In this document: positions 814-6,741 of the stretch, in pieces
Layout: each line of letters opens with the position of its first letter
Position numbering within the stretch: position 1 is the stretch's first letter
DNA from: Phenylobacterium sp.
Lineage (GTDB): Bacteria > Pseudomonadota > Alphaproteobacteria > Caulobacterales > Caulobacteraceae
Assembly: GCA_025350885.1 (NCBI GenBank)
Contig: JANXXA010000506.1
Span: forward strand, 1 to 10,137
Reading direction: 5' to 3'
DNA: 10,137 nt
The notes under the pieces: model-generated
Databases searched by the model: none
Told to the model about the DNA's origin: nothing
What the model saw: the letters and a program-made list of their open reading frames with translations, nothing else
Made by a program: the position numbers and the translations under genes

Positions 814-1556
814 GCCATCCGTTCGGCGAGGCCTGGGAGCGGCTGTTCCACCCGCCGGTGGCGCACCGCGGGCTGTGGACCGCGGACGGTCCGCCGGAAA
901 ATTCCCTGGGCGCCTTCCAGGCCGCCTGCGCCTCCGGCTACAGCATCGAACTTGACGTCCAGCTCTCCGCCGATGGCGAGGCCATGGTGTTCCATGACGA
1001 CGACCTGGCACGGATGACCGGGGTCGCGGGAAAGCTTCGTGACCGAACCGCCGAGGACCTCTCCACTTTGCGGCTCAACGGCTCCGATGAACCTATCCCA
1101 ACCCTGCTGGAAACCCTGGCCCTGGTCGGCCACCGAGCCATGGTGCACGTCGAGCTGAAGACGCCCTACGGTCAGGTGGGACCGCTTGAGCGGCGGACCC
1201 ATGAGGTGCTGATCGACCACAGCGGACCGGTCTGCGTGATCGGCTTCAATCCCTATTCCCACGCCTGGTTCGCCGAACGGTTCCCAGGCGTGCTGCGCGG
1301 GCTCGACAGCTATTCCTACCGGCGCGCGCCGCAGATGGCCGAGGCGCAGCGCGCGAGCTTCGCCAGCCTCGAGCATGTTTCGATCGCCCGGCCGCACTTC
1401 CTGGCGCTGGGCCTCGACATGCTGCCCAGCCCGCGCGCGGCCGACTATCGCGCCAAGGGCATGCCGATCATCGCCTGGACCGTGCGTGATCCCGCGCAGT
1501 GGGAGGCGGTCCACGCGGGTTGCGACAACCTGATCTTCGAGGGCTTCAACCCTTGA
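810..1556 (+). CDS. Glycerophosphodiester phosphodiesterase family protein (cytosolic)
   Basis: A 248-residue TIM-barrel phosphodiesterase of the GDPD family. The N-terminal signature is complete: AHRG with His19-Arg20, PENSLGAF (29-36), and ELDVQLSADGEAMVFHDD (47-64). The catalytic pair is His19/His62, and Glu47, Asp49 and Glu115 (in VELK) are the expected metal ligands. The C-terminal AWTV segment and the DNLIFEGF end fit the last strands. No signal peptide is seen, so it should act in the cytoplasm, cleaving glycerophosphodiesters to glycerol-3-phosphate and an alcohol; the true substrate is not known. The start is GTG 810, overlapping the upstream stop (GTGA). The downstream acyltransferase begins at a TTG overlapping this gene's TGA, so three genes appear translationally chained. 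Length is normal for the bacterial single-domain enzymes. Confidence 0.92.
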   Translation: MSHPFGEAWERLFHPPVAHRGLWTADGPPENSLGAFQAACASGYSIELDVQLSADGEAMVFHDDDLARMTGVAGKLRDRTAEDLSTLRLNGSDEPIPTLLETLALVGHRAMVHVELKTPYGQVGPLERRTHEVLIDHSGPVCVIGFNPYSHAWFAERFPGVLRGLDSYSYRRAPQMAEAQRASFASLEHVSIARPHFLALGLDMLPSPRAADYRAKGMPIIAWTVRDPAQWEAVHAGCDNLIFEGFNP

Positions 1557-2746
1557 AGGAGACCCGGGTCGCGACGCTGAAGCCGGCCGTCAGGGTCTGT
1601 CGCCGGGTCGCGGAGATCGGTCGAGAGGCCTGGGACGCCTGCGCCCGAAACCCTGACTATGCCGGTAACCCGTTCATTCTCTATGATTTTCTGGACGCGC
1701 TCGAACAGTCGAACTGCGCCACCGAACGCACCGGGTGGGGGCCGCAGCACCTGACCGTCGAGGACGTTCATGGTCAGGTGGCCGCGGTCATGCCGCTCTA
1801 CATGAAGTCCCACAGCCAGGGGGAATACATCTTCGACCACGCCTGGGCCGACGCCTATGAACGGGCAGGGGGGCGCTACTATCCCAAGCTGCTCTGCGCG
1901 GCGCCGTTCACCCCAGCCACCGGTGCGCGCCTGCTGGCCCGGCCGGACATCGACGCCGAGGAGGCGCGGCGGTTCCTGCTGGGCGGCGCCCTGACGCTGT
2001 GCGAGCGCCATGGAGCCTCATCCTTCCACGTCAATTTTCCCACCGCCGACGAGTGGCGCTGGATGGGCGAACAGGGCCTGGCGCTGCGCGAAGGCCAGCA
2101 ATATCACTGGGAGAATCGCAGCTACGCGACCTTTGACGACTTCCTGGGCGCGCTGTCCTCGGGGCGGCGCAAGACCATCCGGCGTGAACGGCGCGACGCG
2201 GCCTGCGGGGTCGAGATCCTCTGCCTGACCGGCGCGGACCTGACCGAGGATCACTGGGACGCCTTCTTCGGCTTCTACATGGACACCGGCGCGCGCAAAT
2301 GGGGACAGCCCTATCTGTCACGCGCGTTCTTCTCGCTGCTGGGCGAGCGGATGGCCGACCGGGTGCTGCTGATCATGGCCCGGCGCCCAGATGGCGTCGG
2401 GCGCGGCCGCTGGATCGCCGGCGCTTTGAACCTGATCGGTGACGACTGCCTCTACGGCCGCAACTGGGGCTGCGTCGAGGACGTGCCCTTTCTGCATTTC
2501 GAGCTCTGCTACTACCAGGCAATCGACTGGGCGATTTCCCACGGCCTGTCCCGCGTCGAGGCCGGCGCCCAGGGCCAGCACAAGATCGCCCGGGGCTACC
2601 TGCCCAGGCCCGTCTACTCCGCCCACTATATCGCCGACCCGGCCCTGCGCGGCCCCGTCGAACGCTTCGTCGCCCAGGAACGCGCCGGTGTCGAACAGGA
2701 GATGGAATGGCTGGCGGACGAATATTCGCCGTTCAAGCAGGGTTGA
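1553..2746 (+). CDS. COG3146/DUF482 FemAB-like N-acyltransferase (GNAT fold)
   Basis: About 397 residues, recognised as the COG3146 family of predicted N-acyltransferases, related to FemAB peptidyltransferases. Diagnostic blocks in order: NPFILYDFLDALEQS near the N-terminus; SHSQGEYIFDHAWADAYERA; YYPKL...PFTPATG; SSFHVNFPT; SSGRRKTIRRER; a GARKWGQPYL...FF block; YGRNWGCVEDVPFLHFELCY; and EAGAQGQHKIARGY near the C-terminus. Substrate and cellular role are not established for the family. The frame stays open upstream to GTG 1499, but TTG 1553 is preferred: it has GAGGG at 1539-1543 nine bases upstream and overlaps the preceding stop as TTGA, like the upstream junction. The TGA stop (2744-2746) lies inside the left inverted repeat of the DUF559 cassette, so the last residue or two may have been changed by its insertion. 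Confidence 0.88.
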   Translation: MKETRVATLKPAVRVCRRVAEIGREAWDACARNPDYAGNPFILYDFLDALEQSNCATERTGWGPQHLTVEDVHGQVAAVMPLYMKSHSQGEYIFDHAWADAYERAGGRYYPKLLCAAPFTPATGARLLARPDIDAEEARRFLLGGALTLCERHGASSFHVNFPTADEWRWMGEQGLALREGQQYHWENRSYATFDDFLGALSSGRRKTIRRERRDAACGVEILCLTGADLTEDHWDAFFGFYMDTGARKWGQPYLSRAFFSLLGERMADRVLLIMARRPDGVGRGRWIAGALNLIGDDCLYGRNWGCVEDVPFLHFELCYYQAIDWAISHGLSRVEAGAQGQHKIARGYLPRPVYSAHYIADPALRGPVERFVAQERAGVEQEMEWLADEYSPFKQG

Positions 2747-2814
2747 CCTTCCTTGCCCGCGTAGCGGGAGAGGGGGACCGCCCGCCAAAGAGCGGGTGGC
2801 GGAGAGGGCGAGCC
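2742..2814 (+). repeat. Left 73-nt inverted repeat of the DUF559 cassette (two-hairpin, REP-like)
   Basis: The arm matches the reverse complement of 3206-3278 at 63 of 73 positions with no gaps; the outer 40 nt differ at only three positions. It forms two hairpins. Hairpin 1 is CCCGC-GTA-GCGGG (2756-2768). Hairpin 2 is an 8-bp stem, CCGCCCGC (2778-2785) with GCGGGTGG (2792-2799), closing a 6-nt CAAAGA loop with one G-T wobble. The inner end is GGAGAGGGCGAGCC (2801-2814). The outer end GTTGACC contains the acyltransferase stop codon. Short GC-rich palindromes of this type are widespread in Caulobacterales intergenic DNA; the copy number in this genome cannot be seen from one window. Confidence 0.93.
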
Positions 2815-2825
2815 TCATGCTCCGG

Positions 2826-3200
2826 CTATCCGCGCGCCGCGATCAGCTCCAATGCTCGCAGGATCACACCGTCGGAGACGACGCTGAGATCGTGAAAGAC
2901 AGCTCCGGCGCCGATCCTCAGCACCGTGATTCCGCGCCCCGTCAGCCAAGCATCCCGCGCCTCGTCCTTGGCGCGCTTCTCCTCGCTCCAATGCGTGGCT
3001 CCATCAATCTCCACCGCCAGCTTCGCCGCCGGGCAGTAGAAATCGAAGATCATCGCCTCATAGGCGAACTGGCGGCGGAAGATTGGCTGACCGCGCCCGC
3101 GCCCCTTGAGCCGCGACCACAGCATGATCTCCGGTTCGGTCATGGTCTTCCGGAGAGCCCGCGCCCGTTTGACGATCTTGAGGGCTGCGTTGGACTCCAT
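2826..3200 (-). CDS. DUF559 (Vsr-like) endonuclease-domain protein inside an inverted-repeat cassette
   Basis: A 124-residue protein of the DUF559 family, which shares the Vsr/PD-(D/E)XK-like nuclease fold. Features in order: a basic helix (KIVKRARALRKTM), TEPEIMLWSRLKGR (21-34), FRRQ (41-44), IFDFYCP (51-57), and LAVEIDGATH (61-70). Asp53, Glu64 and Asp66 are the likely metal-binding residues, with His70 nearby. The C-terminus reads VLRIGAG rather than the commoner VLRFWN; I recall related VRI-type members in Caulobacterales. No experimental function is known for small DUF559 proteins. The start is ATG 3198-3200: its Shine-Dalgarno, GGAGAGGGAGAG, sits 7 nt upstream and is the inner end of the right repeat arm. 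A GTG at 3224 would begin within the repeat. The ORF leaves only 5 and 11 bases between itself and the two arms, so gene and repeats form one unit. Confidence 0.88.
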   Translation of the reverse strand: MESNAALKIVKRARALRKTMTEPEIMLWSRLKGRGRGQPIFRRQFAYEAMIFDFYCPAAKLAVEIDGATHWSEEKRAKDEARDAWLTGRGITVLRIGAGAVFHDLSVVSDGVILRALELIAARG

Positions 3201-3205
3201 GCGGT

Positions 3206-3278
3206 GGCTCTCCCTCTCCACCACGCCCTCTTCGGGGCGCGGTCCCCCTCTCCCGCTTCGCGGGAAAGGAAGGTTAAC
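3206..3278 (-). repeat. Right 73-nt inverted repeat of the DUF559 cassette
   Basis: The inverted partner of 2742-2814. On the minus strand it reads GTTAACC, then hairpin 1 CCCGC-GAA-GCGGG (plus-strand 3252-3264), then hairpin 2 CCGCGCCC with GGGCGTGG (plus-strand 3221-3228 and 3235-3242, loop CGAAGA), then GGAGAGGGAGAGCC. Relative to the left arm, hairpin 2 differs at two base pairs, each changed on both sides so that pairing is kept; the wobble is at the same position. The outer GTTAACC contains the TAA stop (3274-3276) of the DUF4287 gene, and the inner end supplies the ribosome-binding site of the DUF559 gene. Confidence 0.93.
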
Positions 3279-3864
3279 TTCGCTCCCAGGCTTGTTTTAG
3301 GAGCGACTCAACGCATGCGTCCACGGCAGCCGGCCCATCCAGCAGCACCTTCGCCTTCAGCCGCTCTGACCAACCTTCAGTCTTCGGCTCGGCCAGCCTG
3401 GGGTCGGCGTCAGGCGTCACGGCCAAGCCCAGCACCGCCCCGCCGCCCTTGGCGGGTTTGATCGCGGCGAACTGGAATTCGCGGGAAAAGGCGTTGAACC
3501 CCTTCCGCTGCGCCGCTACCAGGCCCGGATAGTCGGCGACTGCGGCCTCGACCGCCTGCAGGATCGCCCTTGAGCCGGCATCAGCCCACAGGGCGTCGCG
3601 CAGGTCGCCCGGCCTGGACCACATGGCGGCGGCGGGGAAGGCTCTGCCCAGGATGACGCCGGCGCGGTTGGTTCCCAGCCCGTACTGCGCCTTCAGCCAG
3701 GCTTTGCGCGCGCCCGGCCTGGTTTCCGGACAGGCCCGCGCGATGGCGACCCAGGCTTCGAGGCTTTTGCCGGTCTCGCGCTCCATGCTTTCGACCAACG
3801 AGGCGAACCACTTCTCCTGGCGCGCTGTCATGCTGGCCGGCTTGGTTTCGGAGGATTGCGACAT
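3274..3864 (-). CDS. DUF4287 domain protein with DUF5655-like C-terminal region
   Basis: 196 residues, soluble, with no signal or membrane segment. The N-terminal part matches DUF4287: a METARQ-like start (MTARQEKWF, 12-20), ERETGKSLEAWVAIAR (28-43), ETRPGARKAWLKAQYGLG (47-64). The C-terminal part (about 105-196) resembles DUF5655: FSREFQFAAIKPAKGGG (126-142), a short VLGLAV strand, and a final helix VDACVESLLKQAW. Neither domain has an assigned function; I do not propose one. ATG 3862-3864 is preceded on the minus strand by AAAGGTGA, a clear ribosome-binding site. The stop TAA lies inside the right cassette repeat. It is divergent from the HIT gene with 54 bases between the start codons, which must hold both promoters. 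Confidence 0.82.
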   Translation of the reverse strand: MSQSSETKPASMTARQEKWFASLVESMERETGKSLEAWVAIARACPETRPGARKAWLKAQYGLGTNRAGVILGRAFPAAAMWSRPGDLRDALWADAGSRAILQAVEAAVADYPGLVAAQRKGFNAFSREFQFAAIKPAKGGGAVLGLAVTPDADPRLAEPKTEGWSERLKAKVLLDGPAAVDACVESLLKQAWERS

Positions 3865-4416: not shown

Positions 4417-6741
4417 TCAGTCGACCGGCAGGGCCTCGGCGATGTCTGCTGCCGTCTCGATGATCGGCGCGCCGCGTTCGCGGTCGTCGCCCTCGATGTC
4501 GAAGGCCAGCTTGCCGTCGCGCAGCACGACCTTGACGTGGCCGCCCTTGATCAGCTTGCCGAACAGGATCTCGTCGGCGAGCGGCTTCTTGATGTGCTCC
4601 TGGATGACCCGGCCTAGCGGACGCGCGCCATAGAGTTCGTCAAAGCCATTCTTGGCCAGCCAGTCGGCCGCGTCGTCGGTGGTCTCGATGGTCACGTGGC
4701 GATCGGCCAACTGGGCCTCCAGCTGCATGATGAACTTCTGAACGACCAGCTTGATGATCTCCGGCGTCAACGACTTGAACGCCACCACCGCGTCGAGGCG
4801 GTTACGGAATTCCGGCGTGAACACCCGCTTGATCGCTTCCTCGGCCTCGTCGTCCTGCTTGCCGCGCCCGAAGCCAATTGAATTGCGCTGGGCGTCGGAG
4901 GCGCCGGCGTTGGTGGTCATGATCAGGACCACGTTGCGGAAGTCGATCTTCTTGCCGTTGCTATCGGTCAGCGCGCCGTGATCCATGACCTGCAAGAGGA
5001 TGTTGTAGACGTCCGGGTGGGCTTTCTCGATCTCGTCGAGCAGGACGACGGCGTGCGGATGCTGGTCCACCGCGTCGGTCAGCAGGCCGCCCTGGTCGAA
5101 GCCGACATAGCCGGGCGGCGCCCCGATCAGGCGACTGACCGTATGGCGTTCCATATATTCGCTCATGTCGAAGCGCAGGAGCTCGATACCCAGGGTCGAA
5201 GCCAGCTGGCGCGCGGTCTCCGTCTTGCCGGTGCCGGTGGGTCCTGAGAACAGATAGCAGCCGATCGGCTTGCCCGGATCGCGCAAGCCGGCGCGAGCCA
5301 TCTTCATGGCCGACGACAGCTGGTCGATGGCGTCGTCCTGGCCATAGACCGCGCGTTTCAGGTCGGTCTCAAGCTGCTTCAGCGCCTCGGTGTCGGTCTT
5401 GGAGACCGACTTGGGCGGAATGCGGGCGATCTTGGCGACCACCGCCTCAACCTCTTTCACGCCGATGATCTTCTTGCGCTTGCCTTCGGGCAGCAACATC
5501 TGGCCGGCTCCGGCCTCGTCGATGATGTCGATGGCTTTGTCCGGCAGTTTTCGGTCGTTGATGTACTTGGCCGAAAGCTCCACCGCCGCCTTGATGGCGT
5601 CGTTGGTGTAACGAAGCTTGTGGAATTCCTCGTAGTAGATCTTCAGGCCCTTGAGGATCTTGATCGTGTCGTCGATGGTCGGTTCATTGATATCGATCTT
5701 CTGGAACCGACGGACCAGCGCCCGATCCTTCTCGAAGTGCTGGCGGAATTCCTTGTAGGTGGTCGAGCCCATGCACCGCAGCGAGCCCGAGGCCAGCGCT
5801 GGCTTCAGCAGGTTGGAGGCGTCCATGGCCCCGCCGCTGGTGGCGCCGGCGCCGATCACCGTGTGGATCTCGTCGATGAACAGGATCGCGTCGGGGTGGT
5901 GTTCCAGTTCCTTGACGACCTGCTTCACCCGCTCCTCAAAATCGCCGCGATAGCGGGTGCCGGCCAGCAGCGCGCCCATGTCGAGCGAGAAGATGGTCGA
6001 ACCGGACAGCACCTCGGGGACCTGATTGTTGATGATTTTGCGGGCCAGACCCTCGGCGATAGCGGTCTTGCCGACCCCGGGGTCGCCGACCAGCAGCGGG
6101 TTGTTCTTGGTCCGTCGGCAGAGGATCTGGATGCAGCGTTCGACTTCGCTGGAGCGGCCGATCAAGGGATCGACCTTACCCTGCTTGGCCTTCTCGTTGA
6201 GGTTGACGCAATAGGCTTCCAGGGCCTCTCCGCCGGTCTTGACGGTGGGCTTGTCTTCCTCGTCGGAGGCGCCCTTCACGGGCTTGGTTTCCGTGGCCCC
6301 GGCCTTCTTGGCGATGCCATGGGCGATGTAGTTGACCGCGTCGTAGCGGGTCATGTCCTGCTCCTGCAGGAAATAGGCGGCGTGGCTCTCGCGCTCGGAG
6401 AAGATCGCCACCAGAACATTGGCCCCGGTGACCTCTTCGCGACCCGAAGACTGCACGTGGATCACCGCGCGCTGGATCACCCGCTGAAATCCCGCGGTGG
6501 GCTTGGCGTCCTCGCCGTCGTCGACCACCAGGGAGCGCAACTCGGTGTCGACATAGTTGGTGAGCGTGGTGCGGAGCGCGCCCAGTTCCACCTCGCAGGC
6601 CCGCATGACGCCGGCCGCATCCTCATCGTCGATGAGCGACAGCAGCAGGTGTTCCAGCGTCGCGTACTCGTGCTTTCGCTGATTGGCGTAGGCGACTGCG
6701 CGATGCAGGGACTCTTCGAGAGGTCGCGAAAATGAAGGCAA
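4417..6741 (-). CDS. clpA: ClpA, AAA+ unfoldase subunit of the ClpAP protease
   Basis: 774 residues, close to the 758 of E. coli ClpA. Layout: N-domain with two Clp repeats (about 1-142) that docks ClpS; an acidic/lysine-rich linker (150-170); D1 with Walker A GDPGVGKT (219-226), Walker B ILFIDE (286-291) and an arginine-finger region near 340-346; D2 with Walker A GPTGTGKT (500-507), Walker B VVLLDE (565-570), sensor 2 GARPLGR (705-711). The IGF loop (Ile622-Gly623-Phe624) is the ClpP docking motif. It unfolds substrates and feeds them to ClpP, here with ClpS for N-degron substrates. The start codon is TTG 6739-6741; the [14 protein letters not shown]-terminus matches the family and the next in-frame ATG is at codon 46, inside the domain. 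An AAGGA lies about 10 bases upstream, overlapping the end of clpS, only 6 bases away. Confidence 0.97.

Follow-up and report, generated by a model that had tools for sequence, protein, structure and literature searches.

The 10,137-nt contig JANXXA010000506.1, analyzed here at its full length (the window), comes from a fragmented metagenome assembly of Phenylobacterium sp. (GCA_025350885.1; 3.09 Mb, 598 contigs, 73% complete) and carries a unit of about 526 nt in which a single DUF559 gene lies between two inward-facing hairpin repeats, referred to below as arms. We consider it more likely than not that this unit belongs to a REPIN-like mobile element and is the form that carries the gene; the element's single protein, a DUF559 nuclease with the EDxHD/Vsr fold, would recognize and cut the arms. 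Sequence comparison shows that the gene and its arms are one unit, that gene-less arms make up a dispersed population, and that arm types and nuclease types are matched. It also shows that units were gained precisely in the past, as relatives have the same sites empty, and no target duplication was found. We infer that the nuclease cuts its own arms and drives their spread.

The arms are 73 nt long, 86% complementary and ungapped, and are separated by a spacer of 391 nt; no other inverted repeat in the window comes near them in length, the runner-up measuring 34 nt at 71%. The original prediction, made from the letters of the window, described such arms around one open reading frame (ORF) of 375 nt; this holds when the minus-strand gene is read from its in-frame ATG, while a GTG start (2826–3224) would carry it into the right arm. 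The ORF is intact and scores 75.8 bits with PF04480, for which the cut-off is 20.6. Because the outer 5–6 nt of the arms (GTTGAC and GTTAAC) contain the stop codons of both flanking genes, these nucleotides look host-derived. The recurrent repeat begins with CTTCC and finishes with GGAAG, and the resulting length is close to that of three further units that carry the gene and have well-defined ends (525–527 nt). Rfam matched nothing between positions 2600 and 3400. A defense-system identity was rejected, as PADLOC returned weak matches only (DpdF, 25 bits; mREase_II, 20 bits).

To count as bracketed, a gene had to show a local-alignment score of at least 40 between its two flanks. In a pooled test, with one setting for all, controls taken from a distance of 1.5 kb or more and identical proteins merged, 192 of 262 DUF559 genes were bracketed as against 7 of 989 controls from the same stretches (2 of 392 short controls). 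The set covered 194 genome or record labels, a few of which, named and unnamed, may be one genome. At a threshold of 30 the counts were 209 DUF559 genes and 31 controls, and at 60 they were 159 and 3. The association extended over Caulobacteraceae (122/157; controls 5/676), other Alphaproteobacteria (40/58; controls 0/195), unplaced Alphaproteobacteria (5/5), non-alpha Proteobacteria (16/31; controls 1/74), bins labelled just Proteobacteria (2/2), Deinococcus (3/3) and cyanobacteria (3/5, one of them inverted). Two further cyanobacterial loci (L435 and L438) had inverted palindromes by eye that scored under the threshold, and L440 and L441 were one-sided. In all, the association takes in eight plasmid genes from Deinococcus or cyanobacteria. 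The remaining bracketed gene, 1/1, lies on a contig labelled Rikenellaceae (L227) that is perhaps misbinned. On plasmids, 7 of 14 DUF559 genes were bracketed; 4 of 47 annotated genes were also positive, all four of which adjoin a DUF559 gene directly.

Other rounds of counting gave comparable contrasts. In a first round on nine genomes, 44 places were entered, of which two fell outside the stretches and two lacked a flank; inverted flanks were found at 24 of the remaining 40 DUF559 genes, 1 of 390 other genes and none of 1268 random windows. Direct flanks, at 6/40, 2/390 and 14/1268, respectively, are less specific. Among named loci, scored in either orientation, 57 of 78 DUF559 genes were bracketed (2 of 80 were without flanks) compared with 1 of 276 controls, an apparent acyl-CoA dehydrogenase gene that sits between two gene-less pairs. 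A first look at the best loci elsewhere had 21 of 25 bracketed in Caulobacter. Regions of 12 kb gave 8/20 in other Alphaproteobacteria (controls 0/99) and 12/20 in non-alpha Proteobacteria (controls 1/85); since five of the latter 20 loci repeated the first look and four of those were already positive, the fresh count is 8/15. Chance or base composition as the cause of the flank match is ruled out by the random windows and the control genes. Neither outcome that would have spoken against the original prediction was seen: the arms are not confined to the window, and the association of DUF559 genes with repeats, forecast as an enrichment, exceeds chance across the clade. Two side observations concern individual loci: a non-alpha proteobacterium (L317) has three tandem, AT-richer palindromic repeats on one side only, 3′ of its DUF559 gene, and a DUF559 gene at a locus conserved across several Caulobacterales has brackets in L175, L178 and L185 but none in L067, L170 and L174.

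The type of nuclease predicts the type of arm. Among 126 genes with inverted brackets, compared as non-syntenic pairs from different genomes, arms were common to 71.6% of 257 pairs with a protein similarity of at least 0.6, to 17% of 1301 pairs at 0.45–0.6, to 8% of 2161 pairs at 0.35–0.45 and to about 1% of 4062 pairs below 0.35. Nearest protein neighbors had an arm similarity of 0.483 (shuffled, 0.281 ± 0.014). When arms were permuted within genomes (35 loci), the observed value of 0.441 exceeded the permuted 0.361 ± 0.022, and none of 2000 permutations was as high. An enzyme paired with its own sites would be expected to behave in this way.

Each arm consists of two hairpins, and these are conserved as structure. 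The alignment held 67 of 76 arms of 70–75 nt, nine having been removed by hand, mostly as near-duplicates, and arms with longer loops having been excluded. In it, 98.5% of 1206 cells pair (shuffled, 89.1%), two-sided changes occur in 102 cells (shuffled, 22) and at 8 of 18 pairs (shuffled, 5.8). The alignment scores 0.330 for covariation, compared with 0.146 ± 0.008 after shuffling and at most 0.124 with slid partners. Further pair types numbered 17, which is not above the shuffled 18.8. An alternative stem joining columns 11–17 with 64–70 pairs in 94.5% of cells and contains no pair with a two-sided change. The inner hairpins of the window's own two arms differ through compensating changes. 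Arm ends vary, being CTACC in some and CTTCC or CTGCC in others. At one locus (L430, approximately 3330–3400) a GGAGGA tract at the outer end of an arm lies directly ahead of the next operon gene's start codon, where the inserted unit may supply a ribosome-binding site.

The arms recur both singly and in pairs, as had been anticipated. The genome of the window has 25 arm matches at E-values up to 10 and 18 below 0.005 (the window's two included), and a covariance model finds 37; inward-facing pairs without a gene were read in the sequence of contigs C17, C101, C148, C362 and C481. The same genome has six PF04480 matches. By eye, four of them (C339, which is the window, C525, C176 and C553) place DUF559 between window-type or related arms, with C525 and C176 resembling variants of a single locus; C319 has it between copies of another palindromic repeat. 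Inside one arm of C176 (L135, approximately 5450–5570) there is an extra GC-rich palindrome, absent from the near-twin C525; either one element inserted into another, or the assembly combines strains that differ here. At C162 (G000:C162:4212-4529; L137, L026) the DUF559 domain is, by eye, the C-terminal part of a RecQ-like frame of 747 aa with a paired palindrome downstream, and this helicase-nuclease fusion hints at the processing of unwound DNA.

Of 81 other Phenylobacterium genomes, 19 have a close DUF559 protein (E up to 1e-30 to that of the window), 34 another match and 28 none; arms turned up in 17, 21 and 6 of these, respectively. The counts are lower bounds because just 11 candidates were scored in most genomes. 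With the covariance model and 82 candidates scored per genome, 59 genomes had median arm numbers of 37, 19 and 0 in the same three classes (n = 11, 29 and 19), and arm number rose with the number of DUF559 matches (Spearman 0.77). The best-arm loci, one per genome (29), comprised seven with DUF559 beside or between the arms, 12 inward-facing gene-less pairs, one same-direction pair and nine with a single recognizable arm. Clear-ended gene-less pairs, of which there are 19, measure 147–201 nt and have the same polarity as the three gene-bearing units.

Dispersal of this kind might be the work of another enzyme, such as a Y1 transposase of the REP-associated tyrosine transposase (RAYT) type (REP, repetitive extragenic palindromic), the kind of mover put forward for classical REPINs, with the DUF559 gene a mere passenger. 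The genome of the window does contain two Y1_Tnp genes, and arms are present in some genomes without a matched DUF559. Against this, Y1_Tnp occurs in just 10 of 60 family genomes sampled (absent from 50) and is missing from six genomes, G016, G018, G034, G037, G054 and G058, that all have bracketed DUF559 genes; none of eight Y1 genes tested (of 20 listed) was bracketed, the best score being 32; and the two Y1 contigs of the window's genome have no window-type arm, one carrying a 24-nt partial match to another arm. Nor would a passenger be expected to match its arms by type. We regard a separate mover as highly improbable; a RAYT in that role is ruled out for most sampled genomes by the rarity of Y1 genes and their lack of brackets.

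Empty and filled sites, the junctions of which were read by eye, agree with the predicted precise gain. At the site of the window's unit, the femAB and DUF4287 genes abut in eight loci (L102, L103, L105, L107, L112, L119, L124 and L126), the junctions that were read having overlapping stops (CTAG, TTAG or CTAA), and no DUF559 gene was present within 1.5 kb at the 29 other femAB loci returned. A sister species (L151) has the unit at the identical place with a protein 83% identical, so the insertion predates the split between the two. In Brevundimonas, units occupy a junction taken by eye for glyQ/glyS in L070 and L075, and L189 and L218 are without one; in Asticcacaulis, a unit of approximately 480 nt is absent from L186 and L200. 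Deinococcus species carry the DUF559 gene at differing junctions of the hpa cluster, and in D. ficus and D. deserti, which have no DUF559 gene there, the oxidoreductase and hpaE genes overlap by 4 nt. In Deinococcus wulumuqiensis (L443:1862-2023) all that is left of DUF559 is a remnant of 162 nt, placed between the oxidoreductase gene and hpaB. Plasmid units also lie inside pnt and suf operons; on plasmids, no close relative without the gene was found that could provide a strain-level empty site. By eye, no gene-less pair of the same family, which would have favored homing, was seen at an orthologous site: L214 has a different family at a Brevundimonas site, and L129 (approximately 1330–1500) has an unrelated inverted repeat, of the TCATCCCGG...CCGGGATGA type, at the femAB/DUF4287 junction.

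None of 22 clear-ended units had a target duplication of at least 5 nt (shuffled mean, 0.77); flank duplications of 4 nt were seen in 3 of 22 (shuffled, 1.97) and of 3 nt in 8 of 22 (shuffled, 7.4). Unit ends were close to open-frame stop codons, 22 of 44 within 8 nt and 16 of 44 within 1 nt. For comparison, of 4000 random positions drawn outside called ORFs in L061–L100, 235 and 41 lay that close to a stop codon, and of 4000 drawn from the whole of L061–L100, 122 and 12 did. This closeness may reflect a target preference or selection against disruption.

The protein fold makes homing by gene conversion the main rival explanation: the nuclease would cut empty or gene-less sites, and the unit would be copied by break repair with the arms as homology, gene-less pairs having first been dispersed in some other way. 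Units stand at many non-homologous sites, and the empty junctions that were read (the eight loci of the window's site, L189, L218, D. ficus and D. deserti) carry no arms, so arm homology could not have guided those insertions. The joint increase of arm number and DUF559 number also argues against homing, which we think unlikely.

The protein model matches the homing endonuclease I-Bth0305I (PDB 3r3p) and Vsr, and on that model the catalytic fold of DUF559 appears to be of the EDxHD/Vsr type. The predicted Vsr-like fold was thus borne out, with the correction that the closest characterized relative is a homing endonuclease and not Vsr. The presumed catalytic residues D61, E72 and D74 are invariant. 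Databases annotate DUF559 as a domain of unknown function or plainly as an endonuclease; in print it is described as a Vsr-like domain (PMC12907096) and as a member of the EDxHD homing family (PMC9403480). A search of the open-license literature, mostly by title listing, found no publication tying DUF559 to dispersed repeats.

It is conceivable that DUF559 proteins are host nucleases of repair or resolution, like Vsr or a Holliday-junction resolvase, and that the adjoining repeats are regulatory or insulating and not mobile. In keeping with such a role, the Vsr and Hjc folds are similar, the gene is under purifying selection (dN/dS about 0.2), and PMC12907096 reports that VsrA of C. crescentus, a DUF559 protein, causes SOS induction in a methyltransferase mutant. 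A host function sits badly with a gene number that varies between genomes from 0 to 13, with the placement of the genes at non-orthologous positions, and with precise empty sites, frameshifted or truncated copies (G159 has only a frameshifted one) and large populations of gene-less arms, and we give it very little credence.

Several points weigh against the reading of a mobile, nuclease-driven unit. At the threshold used, 70 of 262 DUF559 genes are unbracketed, and in the first look outside Caulobacteraceae the counts were just 5 of 14 in other Alphaproteobacteria and 7 of 15 in non-alpha Proteobacteria. As related genomes are not independent, p-values overstate the support and the counts should be read instead. 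The DUF559 protein is a single domain of approximately 130 residues with no obvious extra DNA-binding domain. The window's insertion is old and does not represent current movement, and a DUF559 gene at an old conserved locus may be a domesticated copy. Finally, among the 19 genomes of the genus in which no DUF559 matched, 9 have 1–31 arms, which may be remnants, the result of assembly gaps or the product of another mobilizer.

In the mechanism we propose for the REPIN-like unit, the nuclease would recognize the two hairpin arms together, probably when the DNA is extruded as a cruciform or folded as a single strand, and would cut at the ends of the unit. Such cutting would open the way for copying or insertion at other places, both of the unit and of its derivatives without the gene, with the nuclease serving the gene-less pairs in trans. 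Insertion would be tolerated because both neighboring reading frames stay closed. Beyond this, we see even chances that DUF559 proteins are the mobility enzymes of a bacteria-wide REPIN-like class that is independent of RAYTs and spans Proteobacteria, Deinococcota and Cyanobacteriota, each reading its own double-hairpin arm, with the common C/G-tract palindromes of these phyla as non-autonomous copies.

Features of the unit and its flanking genes in the window
Feature	Position	Strand	Basis
Whole unit, approximately 526 nt, CTTCC (~2748) to GGAAG (~3273)	2748..3273		Ends set by the repeat as it recurs in related copies; sister species lack the unit at this site
Left arm, inward-facing; first 5–6 nt probably host, with femAB stop codon	2742..2814	+	Repeat search; recurrent copies
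Outer hairpin of left arm	2751..2773	+	Covariation, 67 arms, columns 11–36
Inner hairpin of left arm	2778..2799	+	Covariation, columns 41–62; four pairs with two-sided changes
DUF559 (PF04480) nuclease gene, ATG start	2826..3200	-	Profile match, fold, dN/dS about 0.2
Right arm (inverted copy)	3206..3278	-	Repeat search
Outer hairpin of right arm	3247..3269	-	Covariation
Inner hairpin of right arm	3221..3242	-	Covariation
FemAB-like flanking gene, stop flush with the unit	1499..2746	+	Abuts next gene directly in sister species
DUF4287/DUF5655 flanking gene, convergent, stop flush with the unit	3274..3864	-	Profile match; sister-species comparison

If the proposal is correct, a widespread class of dispersed bacterial repeats gains an origin and a mover, DUF559 gains a function, and the REPIN lifestyle arose with two unrelated enzymes. 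It also bears on how such repeats come to spread in genomes that lack a RAYT.

Among known systems, the miniature inverted-repeat transposable elements (MITEs) of DDE insertion sequences are short non-autonomous units with terminal inverted repeats. The present system likewise has short non-autonomous units and terminal inverted repeats; it differs in that no target-site duplication was found, the unit holds no DDE transposase and the arms are double hairpins. With Vsr the DUF559 protein shares the modelled fold, but the bracketing arms set it apart, and no cytosine methyltransferase is present among the seven window neighbors scanned within the first 7.2 kb (FemAB, DUF4287, HIT, ClpA, ClpS, GDPD and YjgF). 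The EDxHD homing endonuclease I-Bth0305I has long DNA-binding regions (PMC3943268, PMC9403480), whereas the DUF559 protein of approximately 130 residues is without them and is framed by hairpin arms; in place of insertion into a homologous gene or intron site, we find units at many unrelated intergenic sites.

The closest likeness is to the REPIN/RAYT system of P. fluorescens SBW25, and the original prediction of a REP/RAYT-like unit stands with DUF559 in place of the Y1 enzyme. Going by PMC3116915, both systems have dispersed intergenic pairs of inward-facing hairpin repeats, single-arm remnants, one gene beside the same repeat and a repeat type matched to the enzyme type. The same paper describes RAYTs as single-copy and apparently not self-mobile, whereas a genome has several copies of the DUF559 gene, which in many cases is placed exactly between the arms and is itself gained as a unit. 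REP repeats end in a constant GTAG or CGTC tag (PMC3733652), in contrast to the CTACC, CTTCC and CTGCC ends of the DUF559-associated arms. The enzyme here is an EDxHD/Vsr-fold nuclease and there a Y1 HUH protein; because that defining enzyme is absent, the system is RAYT/REPIN-like without being a member of the class.
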